Assembly (NCBI GenBank): GCA_010029175.1
Contig: RGNC01000003.1
Coordinates: 1-32,875, forward strand
From: Synechococcaceae bacterium WB8_1B_136
Lineage (GTDB): Bacteria; Cyanobacteriota; Cyanobacteriia; PCC-6307; Cyanobiaceae
Length of the DNA: 32,875 nucleotides
Reading direction: 5' to 3'
Positions within the stretch are counted from its first letter, which is position 1. The number at the start of each line of letters is the position of its first letter. Both the position numbers and the translations under genes were made by a program. Shown piece by piece: positions 12,022-16,748 of this stretch. The notes under the pieces are model-generated. The model saw only the letters and a list, made by a program, of their open reading frames with translations. It did no database searches and was not told the DNA's origin.

Positions 12022-13205
12022 ATCCCCTGGCCGCTGCCGCGGCCCTCTGGCGGGCCCGGCGCATTCCCCTCTCCTGGCTGCTGCTCACCCGCCAGCCCGT
12101 GCGGTTGCTGGTGGCCCTGGCGGGCATCAGCTTCGCCGGGATCCTGATGTTCATGCAGCTGGGCTTCCGCGATGGCCTCTTCGACGCCAGCGTGACCATC
12201 CACCGGCTGTTCGACGCCGATCTGGTGTTGATCAGCCCGCGCTCCAGCAGCTCCGTGAGCATGGCCGGCTTTCCCCGCCGGCGGCTGGTGCAGGCCATGG
12301 CTGATCCCGCCGTGGAGGGGATCACGCCGGTGCACTGGAATCTGCTGCTGTGGCGCAATCCCCAGACCCGCGCCACCCGCTCGATCCTTGCCCTGGGCTT
12401 TGAGCCCACCGACCCCCTGTTCACCGATCCGGCCCTGGCGCCCAAGGCGCGGCTGCTGCAACAGCGCGGCCGCGTGCTGTTCGATGAGCGCTCCAGGCCC
12501 GAATTCGGGCCTGTGGCCGAGTGGTTCAAGGCCGGCCGCACCGTGGAGAGCGAGATCGCCGGCAAGCGGGTGCGCGTGGCGGGCCTGGTGGGCATCGGCA
12601 CCTCCTTCGGCGCCGACGGCAACCTGCTGGCCAGCAGTGAGACCTACTTGGAGCTGCTGCCCAACACCCCACCCGGCAGCATCGAGGTGGGATTGATCCG
12701 CCTGAAGCCGGGTGCCGATGCCGCCGCCGTGGTGGCCCGCCTGCGCCAGACCCTGCCCAGTGATGTCACCGTGCTCACCAAGCAGGGCTTCATTGAATTC
12801 GAGCAGAACTACTGGCGCACCAGCACCTCGATCGGGTTCATCTTCACCCTGGGTGCCGCCATGGGCTTCGTGGTGGGGTGCGTGATCGTGTATCAGATTC
12901 TCTATTCGGATGTGAGTGATCACCTGCCCGAATACGCCACCTTGATGGCCATGGGCTACCGCCTCACGGCCCTGCTGGGGGTGGTGGCGCGGGAGGGCCT
13001 GCTGCTGGCGGTGTTCGGCTACCTGCCCGCCTATGCCGCTGGTCAGGGCCTCTACCTGTTGGTGCGCAATGCCACCCAGCTGCCGGTGGCCATGGACACC
13101 GGCCGGGCCCTCACGGTGTTCACCATGATCCTGGTGATGTGCATGGGATCCGCGGCCCTGGCCATGCGTCGCCTGGCGGATGCCGATCCGGCCGAAATCT
13201 TCTGA
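12018..13205 (+). CDS. devC: ABC exporter permease, DevC-like
   Basis: PLSWLLLTRQPVRLLVALAGISFAGILMFMQLGFRDGLFDASVTIHRLFDADLVLISPRS matches DevC N-terminus; FtsX-like TM region at the C-terminus. Confidence 0.9.
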   Translation: MNPLAAAAALWRARRIPLSWLLLTRQPVRLLVALAGISFAGILMFMQLGFRDGLFDASVTIHRLFDADLVLISPRSSSSVSMAGFPRRRLVQAMADPAVEGITPVHWNLLLWRNPQTRATRSILALGFEPTDPLFTDPALAPKARLLQQRGRVLFDERSRPEFGPVAEWFKAGRTVESEIAGKRVRVAGLVGIGTSFGADGNLLASSETYLELLPNTPPGSIEVGLIRLKPGADAAAVVARLRQTLPSDVTVLTKQGFIEFEQNYWRTSTSIGFIFTLGAAMGFVVGCVIVYQILYSDVSDHLPEYATLMAMGYRLTALLGVVAREGLLLAVFGYLPAYAAGQGLYLLVRNATQLPVAMDTGRALTVFTMILVMCMGSAALAMRRLADADPAEIF

Positions 13206-14211: not shown

Positions 14212-15144
14212 ATGTTTCTCAGCGTCGTCATCCCCACCTACAACCGCAGGCCGATCCTCGAGAAGTGCCTCACGGCCCTCGAGCGGCAGCAGCTGCAGGC
14301 CCCGATCGAGGGCTATGAGGTGGTGCTGGTGGACGACGGCTCCACCGATGAGACCGTGGCCTGGATCCAGGCCGAGTCGGCCCGCTACCCCCACGTGCGT
14401 CTGATTCAGCAGGACCATGGCGGTCCGGCGGAGGGGCGCAACCGTGGCGTGGAGCAGGCCCGTGGCGATGTGATCGTGTTCATCGACAGCGACCTGGTGG
14501 TGACGGAGACCTTCCTGCTCTGCCACGCCCGGGCCCTGGCGCGGCACTGGCAGAGCTCGGGCAACCGGCTGTGCTTCACCTATGGCGCCGTGATCAACAC
14601 CGCCAACTTCGAGCATCCCACCAGCGAGCCCCACAAGCTGCAGGATCTTTCCTGGGCCTATTTCGCCACCGGCAACGTGGCGATCGATCGCCAGGTGCTG
14701 GACAGCAGCGGCCTGTTCGACACCCGTTTCCGCCTCTACGGATGGGAAGACCTGGAACTGGGGGAGCGGTTGCGGCGCATGGGGGTGGTGCTGATCCGCT
14801 GCCCGGAGGCGGTGGGCTACCACTGGCATCCGCCCCTCAGCCTGGAGCAGATCCCCCGCCTAATCGAGGTGGAACGGGAGCGGGCCAAGATGGGACTGGT
14901 GTTCTACCGGAAACACCCCACCCGCCGGGTGCGTTTCATCATCCAGTTCACCCTGTTGCATCGCCTGCTCTGGGAGCTGCTCACCCTCGGCGGTCTGTTG
15001 AATGTGCGCAGCCTGCGGCCGCTGTTGGCCTGGCTGATCCGCCAGGGCAAGCCCGGCCTGGCCATGGAGCTGCTGCGGCTGCCGCTGAACCGCCTCGGCG
15101 TGCGGGCGCTCTACGCCGAGGCCCGGGCGGAAGGCTTGCGCTGA
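14212..15144 (+). CDS. Glycosyltransferase family 2
   Basis: MFLSVVIPTYNRRPILEKCLTALERQ...VVLVDDGSTDETV, IVFIDSDLVV, GWEDLELGERLRRMG. Confidence 0.9.
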   Translation: MFLSVVIPTYNRRPILEKCLTALERQQLQAPIEGYEVVLVDDGSTDETVAWIQAESARYPHVRLIQQDHGGPAEGRNRGVEQARGDVIVFIDSDLVVTETFLLCHARALARHWQSSGNRLCFTYGAVINTANFEHPTSEPHKLQDLSWAYFATGNVAIDRQVLDSSGLFDTRFRLYGWEDLELGERLRRMGVVLIRCPEAVGYHWHPPLSLEQIPRLIEVERERAKMGLVFYRKHPTRRVRFIIQFTLLHRLLWELLTLGGLLNVRSLRPLLAWLIRQGKPGLAMELLRLPLNRLGVRALYAEARAEGLR

Positions 15145-15166
15145 AGGCCATTTGATAGGGTGCCGG

Positions 15167-15263
15167 GGTCAACTTCACTCCGCACACCTGCGTGTTTCGG
15201 GTGACCGTCAGCCCGGCAACTGCCGAGCTCGGGGTCCCTGGCAGGTGGAGGCGAACCCGAAAC
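15167..15263 (+). promoter_or_regulatory. Candidate structured rpsB 5' leader (pseudoknot-capable)
   Basis: GGTCA 15167-15171 / TGACC 15202-15206; CGCA-CACC-TGCG hairpin; GTTTCGGG 15194-15201 pairs with CCCGAAAC 15256-15263; ends 10 nt before rpsB ATG. Confidence 0.45.
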
Positions 15264-15273
15264 CCCAACAACA

Positions 15274-15996
15274 ATGGCTGTCGTCACGCTCGCCGAAATG
15301 ATGGAGGCGGGTGCCCACTTCGGGCACCAAACACGCCGCTGGAACCCCAAGATGTCGCGCTACATCTACTGCGCGCGCAACGGTGTTCACATCATCGATC
15401 TGGTGCAGACCGCCGTCTGCATGAACAACGCCTACAAGTGGACCCGCAGTGCCGCCCGCAGCGGCAAGCGTTTCCTGTTCGTGGGCACCAAGAAGCAGGC
15501 CTCCGAGGTGATCGCCCAGGAGGCCACCCGCTGCGGCGCCGCCTACGTGAACCAGCGCTGGCTGGGCGGCATGCTCACCAACTGGACCACGATGCGCGCC
15601 CGCATCGACCGCCTCAAGGACCTGGAGCGCATGGAATCCTCGGGCGCCATTGCCATGCGTCCCAAGAAGGAGGCCGCGGTGCTGCGCCGTGAGCTGGAGC
15701 GTCTGCAGAAGTATCTCGGCGGTCTGAAGAACATGCGCCGGCTGCCCGATGTGGTGGTGCTGGTGGATCAGCGCCGTGAAACCAACGCCGTGCTCGAGGC
15801 CCGCAAGCTGGACATCCCCCTGGTGTCGATGCTCGACACCAACTGCGACCCCGACCTCTGCGACGTGCCCATCCCCTGCAACGACGACGCGGTGCGCTCC
15901 GTGCAGCTGGTGCTGGGTCGTCTGGCGGATGCCATCAACGAGGGTCGCCATGGCGCCAGCGATCAGCGCGGCGGCTATGAGGACGAGGAGGCCTGA
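15274..15996 (+). CDS. rpsB: 30S ribosomal protein S2
   Basis: [43 protein letters not shown]. Confidence 0.98.
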
Positions 15997-16091
15997 GGCC
16001 TCCCGACCGCAGCCCATCAGCCGAGGCGTCCCACGGGGCACCCGGCTGATCGATCTCCTTCTTCCCCTGTTTCCACGAACCTCCCAGACCC

Positions 16092-16748
16092 ATGGCTGAG
16101 ATCTCCGCCAAGCTCGTCAAGGACCTGCGCGACAAGACCGGCGCCGGCATGATGGACTGCAAGAAGGCGCTGTCCGAAACAAACGGCGACGCCGAGAAGG
16201 CCATTGAGTGGCTGCGGCAGAAGGGCATCGCCTCCGCCGAGAAGAAGTCGGGCCGCACGGCCGCTGAAGGGGCCATCGGCAGCTACATCCACACCGGTGC
16301 CCGCGTGGGCGTGCTGGTGGAAGTGAACTGCGAAACCGATTTCGTCGCCCGCGGCGAGGTGTTCCAGGAACTGCTGCGCAACGTGGCGATGCAGATCGCG
16401 GCCTGCCCCAGCGTGGAGTACGTCACCACCGATGAGATTCCCGCACCGGTGGCCGAGCGGGAGAAGTCGATCGAAATGGGTCGTGACGACCTGGCCGGTA
16501 AGCCCGAGCAGATGAAGGAGAAGATCGTGGAGGGGCGGATCGCCAAGCGCCTCAAGGAGTTGGCCCTGATGGATCAGCCCTACATCAAGGACAGCAGCAT
16601 CAACGTGGGCGAGCTGGTGAAGCAGGTGGCCGGCAAGGTGGGCGAGAACATCCAGGTGCGTCGTTTCGTGCGCTTCAACCTCGGCGAGGGCATCGAGGTG
16701 GAGAAGCTCGACTTCGCCGCGGAAGTGGCTGCCATGCAGGCCGCCTGA
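16092..16748 (+). CDS. tsf: Elongation factor Ts
   Basis: [40 protein letters not shown]...[14 protein letters not shown]. Confidence 0.98.

Follow-up and report, generated by a model that had tools for sequence, protein, structure and literature searches.

Described leaders of bacterial rpsB genes

The closest described relative of the element discussed here is the rpsB motif, a structured leader of the ribosomal protein S2 gene. In the available text of the paper that introduced it, the motif consists of a helix P1, variable hairpins P2 and P3, and a pseudoknot, and is reported in Cyanobacteria, where P2 is short or missing (Meyer et al., 2009, PMC2704228). The same text cites in vivo S2-dependent control of Escherichia coli rpsB. 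S2 is viewed as a translational repressor of rpsB-tsf that is aided by bS1, with details that are still unclear, and the ribosome binding site of the E. coli message reportedly lies outside the operator (2024 review, PMC10931766).

Here, we discuss the rpsB leader in a stretch of 32,875 nucleotides from Synechococcaceae bacterium WB8_1B_136, referred to below as the window. The pseudoknot of this leader RNA is real and strongly conserved. The leader is a member of the rpsB motif, a kind that was described in 2009 with Cyanobacteria included. By analogy with E. coli, it is very probably the cyanobacterial form of that motif, serving as the autoregulatory mRNA leader of S2. To the published description we add a corrected structure, the position of the promoter, the class-wide distribution and the features that set the picocyanobacterial form apart.

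Gene context and promoter

The rpsB gene is encoded on the forward strand at 15274-15996, with an ATG at 15274 and a product of 240 amino acids. The next gene, also on the forward strand at 16092-16748, is tsf, the translation of which was recognised as elongation factor Ts, and the two genes appear to be organised as an operon. Upstream, a glycosyltransferase-like open reading frame ends at 15144, and the leader occupies the gap between this frame and rpsB. The closest relatives of the rpsB gene are found in Vulcanococcus, Synechococcus and Cyanobium, which identifies the window as a contig of a picocyanobacterial genome.

The gap between rpsB and tsf (15997-16091) has features of its own. 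It holds a strong hairpin at about 16016-16050 (ATCAGCCG...CGGCTGAT) and, 3′ of this, a stretch rich in pyrimidines. A hairpin that differs in sequence occupies the same gap in many relatives, for instance GGAGCTTCCC..GGGGGAGCTCC, or, among marine forms, CGCCGCC..GGCGGC. The hairpin may function in attenuation or processing of the message.

An extended -10 element, TGATAGGGT, is present on the forward strand at 15153-15161, with the hexamer TAGGGT at 15156-15161. Its pattern TGnTAnnnT is conserved in all 85 picocyanobacterial leaders and in 42 of 44 leaders from other cyanobacteria, mostly 18-19 nt 5′ of the conserved CGCA with which the structured core begins. Judged from this sequence element, transcription would start near 15168, about 7 nt 3′ of the hexamer, so that the core is transcribed and the predicted leader is about 106 nt long. 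Leaders in Synechococcus and Prochlorococcus are usually short. The initial annotation had pointed out that a start downstream of about 15200 would remove the 5′ arms of its proposed fold; the position of the conserved promoter instead indicates a start around 15168, 5′ of the core.

Structure of the leader

The core was compared over 80 rpsB loci from other genomes and the leaders of further cyanobacteria. It can form an H-type pseudoknot directly upstream of rpsB, composed of P1 and a pseudoknot helix with the variable hairpin P3 between them. The order of elements is common to the relatives: CGCA, the 5′ strand of P1, the 5′ pseudoknot strand ending in GGGT, variable P3, the 3′ strand of P1, a GAGG loop, and the 3′ pseudoknot strand beginning with ACCC.

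In the window, where all parts lie on the forward strand, the conserved CGCA (CACA in E. coli) is located at 15181-15184, just 5′ of P1. The P1 strands CACCTGC (15185-15191) and GCAGGTG (15241-15247) pair with each other. The 5′ strand of the pseudoknot helix, GTTTCGGGT (15194-15202), pairs with the 3′ strand ACCCGAAAC (15255-15263), which lies between 19 and 11 nt upstream of the start codon. P3 (15203-15236) varies in length and sequence among the leaders, and its base, GACC (15203-15206) with GGTC (15233-15236), shows compensatory pairs. The loop GAGGCGA (15248-15254) crosses P1, and its GAGG is nearly invariant and common to E. coli. Only a few nucleotides separate P1 from the pseudoknot strand, leaving no room for P2.

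The pseudoknot was recognised in the initial annotation as GTTTCGGG (15194-15201) with CCCGAAAC (15256-15263), its 3′ end 10 nt before the ATG. This pairing is above chance, all cyanobacteria examined retain its core, several of the few variants are compensatory, and it extends by one further pair, T15202-A15255. A different fold had been proposed around it, in which an outer helix GGTCA (15167-15171)/TGACC (15202-15206) encloses a hairpin CGCA-CACC-TGCG (15181-15192), and a switch operates between CGGC-AACT-GCCG (15214-15225) and CTGCC (15220-15224)/GGCAG (15240-15244). All of these complementary strings are indeed present at those positions, and for a transcript that begins at 15156, CGCA/TGCG reaches a pairing probability of about 0.5. 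The fold as a whole is nevertheless most improbable, as it is not conserved and its hairpin is incompatible with the covarying P1. All five pairs of the outer arm are found at the same offset in only three of 85 picocyanobacterial leaders, its probability in the window ensemble is 0, and with a start near 15168 its GGTCA strand would come to lie at the extreme end of the RNA. The four pairs of CGCA/TGCG are complete in 31 of 85 of these leaders, compete with P1, and have a probability of 0.02 in a transcript from 15168. As for the switch, CTGCC/GGCAG has a probability of 0 and most of its GGCAG belongs to the 3′ strand of P1, while CGGC/GCCG is merely the tip of the length-variable P3. P1 itself (15185-15191/15241-15247), the best-supported helix of all, was absent from that fold.

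In the ensemble computed for a transcript from 15168, P1 has a pairing probability of about 0.9 and the base of P3 one of 0.997. With a start at 15156 instead, P1 drops to 0.1; the computed local fold thus varies with the assumed start of the transcript, and it is conservation that decides for P1. The folding energy of the leader (z-score -0.9) is by itself no evidence for structure.

Conservation and covariation

The core is conserved in all 85 measurable picocyanobacterial leaders and in 44 leaders from other cyanobacteria. Across 92 distinct cyanobacterial cores, the seven pairs of P1 are paired in 643 of 644 cells, and each pair has at least one compensatory variant. In a 49-sequence alignment (A2), 94.2% of the 979 cells of the proposed pairs are paired, compared with 26-56% when the partners are slid by one to three columns; 12 pairs are changed on both sides, and the observed covariation score is reached by none of 500 shuffles. 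Homologous leaders do therefore covary, contrary to the outcome that would have spoken against the initial annotation. Within this alignment, the individual elements contribute as follows: P1 is paired in 99.7% of cells with five of seven pairs changed on both sides, P3 in 86% with four of five changed on both sides, and the pseudoknot helix in 94.4%, with three pairs showing compensatory changes and three invariant.

A tree-aware covariation test was also applied, a home-made, R-scape-like procedure in which substitutions are reshuffled along a FastTree tree. Among 1653 column pairs, each of the five that rank highest is a proposed pair. After full correction P1 pair 7 alone is significant (E = 0.017), and much change on deep branches is a likely reason why so few pairs pass. 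The four core pairs of the pseudoknot, GGGT/ACCC, are invariant within Cyanobacteria, and covariation support for them is thin because of this invariance. Among the pairs that flank them, compensatory changes occur in a few cases, such as TACGGGT/ACCCGTA in locus L126 and TGGGT/ACCCA in L127.

Distribution among Cyanobacteria

A covariance model (R1) was built from cyanobacterial sequences only. In the genome to which the window belongs it finds a single strong site, 15181-15263 (E = 1.7e-16); the next best match has E = 1.6, and the best unrelated matches in this genome reach 14 bits. Across the phylum, R1 matches 176 of 386 genomes, nearly all with one site each, and all of these are in the photosynthetic class, where they make up 176 of 189 sampled genomes. 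Strict filters left 13 genomes without a match; eight of these were scored in full, and four of the eight have clear sites (G132, G167, G182 and G277). Another genome, G086, gives a weak R1 score, yet a divergent core is visible by eye (L127). Two genomes, G036 and G379, have a second, weak site with E about 0.005; such scores are far lower than those of real members, and both sites probably arose by chance.

About 25 R1 sites were checked against rpsB coordinates, and all are directly upstream of rpsB; in the window the core ends at 15263 and rpsB starts at 15274. In classes of the phylum that are sisters to the photosynthetic one, the regions before rpsB (L133, L145, L147, L140 and L142) contain cores that resemble this one but have diverged, such as CACACGCC...GGCGGAGG...AACC and ACACCGGCTC...GAGCCGTTTAGCCC, which suggests that the leader extends beyond the photosynthetic class.

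Relationship to known RNA families

The leader in the window shows each testable structural feature of the rpsB motif, namely a position before rpsB, a covarying P1, a pseudoknot, a variable P3 and the absence of P2. The likeness to the motif as laid out in the available text of Meyer et al. (2009, PMC2704228) extends to the long P1, to the junction with variable P3 that caps it, and to the segment before P3 pairing with a 3′ extension after P1. The two differ in the pseudoknot, which is given there as five pairs in most groups, whereas the picocyanobacterial one has nine. That text makes no mention of a missing picocyanobacterial Shine-Dalgarno sequence.

The cyanobacterial model also has a match in E. 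coli, at the rpsB leader (L082:404-480, 22.4 bits, E = 3.3e-5). On the same stretch the Rfam model t44 (RF00127) scores 83.5 (L082:387-473). Rfam classes t44 as an sRNA gene although its match is the rpsB 5′ leader, and this label hides its cis-regulatory nature. The E. coli leader reads CACA-CACGTATC / GATACGTG-GAGG-CATA-ACCCC with GGGGT, and thus has P1, the pseudoknot, the conserved GAGG and AACCC in like order. It differs in that P1 and the pseudoknot strand are set further apart, the pseudoknot is shorter, and a separate GAGG follows downstream. In the window and its own genome, t44, the cut-off of which is 44 bits, gives no match at the leader; a t44 match at 12845 in that genome is noise.

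Could the leader respond to something other than S2? A small-molecule riboswitch, or a response to another protein such as S1 or EF-Ts, has some points of contact with the data. Riboswitches of the SAM-II and SAM-V type are H-type pseudoknots near start codons, and the leader resembles small riboswitches of this kind in shape. Its pseudoknot close to the start codon is a likeness that the available text of Meyer et al. (2009, PMC2704228) also bears on, and bS1 assists repression by S2 in E. coli (PMC10931766). Either option is nevertheless very unlikely, given one strong site per genome, placed before rpsB in the genomes checked, and no match to an Rfam riboswitch. When Rfam was searched with gathering scores for the whole window, and with E <= 10 for 14900-15400, all matches were to unrelated RNA families and attributable to chance, with no riboswitch among them. 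Unlike the H-type riboswitches, the leader in the window also lacks a metabolic gene context and carries an inserted variable hairpin. The class-wide core and the detection of the E. coli leader by a cyanobacterial model uphold the original proposal of a cyanobacterial S2 leader: an rpsB leader of the autoregulatory type known for S2, containing a genuine pseudoknot. The outer helix, 5′ hairpin and switch of that proposal do not survive.

Translation initiation and the mode of action

The picocyanobacterial form differs from that of other cyanobacteria in its longer pseudoknot helix and in the lack of a Shine-Dalgarno sequence. A Shine-Dalgarno-like sequence 3′ of the pseudoknot core is present in 44/44 non-picocyanobacterial leaders versus 0/85 picocyanobacterial ones. 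Picocyanobacterial tsf genes are likewise devoid of such a sequence (0/75; loci L002-L081), and its absence therefore reflects the lineage, not the rpsB leader. The tsf start in these genomes is preceded by a C/T-rich stretch.

These differences could be taken to mean that the picocyanobacterial operator has changed its mode, with a pseudoknot helix extended to nine pairs that hardly vary and with loss of the adjacent Shine-Dalgarno sequence, such that S2 would control Shine-Dalgarno-independent initiation, possibly with the GGAGG of the pseudoknot loop assisting in positioning the ribosome. We consider such a change of mode doubtful. It is similarly unlikely that the pseudoknot is constitutive and stabilises the mRNA or fixes its translation rate, with S2 not being the ligand. 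Such a role would fit with the need for another means of ribosome loading where Shine-Dalgarno sequences are missing (0/85), and our literature search found no cyanobacterial experiment on S2 binding or S2-dependent regulation. Against it, the unpaired CGCA and GAGG are nearly invariant from E. coli to cyanobacteria, pointing to a common binding partner, and the homologous E. coli leader responds to S2 (PMC10931766, and the available text of PMC2704228).

For an autoregulatory S2 leader, a plausible course of events can be modelled on E. coli. S2 in excess of free 16S rRNA would bind the core once folded and stabilise it. At 11-19 nt upstream of the AUG, the 3′ pseudoknot strand would lie inside the footprint of the initiating 30S subunit, so that 30S binding would be blocked and translation of S2 repressed, and expression of the downstream tsf would be expected to fall along with it. 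When S2 is not in excess, the knot would open and translation proceed. The blocking mechanism may differ from that of E. coli, where the ribosome binding site lies outside the operator (PMC10931766).

Implications

Rfam release 15 misses a leader that is found across photosynthetic Cyanobacteria. With its core and promoter placed, S2 autoregulation becomes directly testable in Synechococcus and Prochlorococcus. If S2 does act on the leader in picocyanobacteria, the same operator would have been retained from Proteobacteria to Cyanobacteria while the mode of translation start changed.
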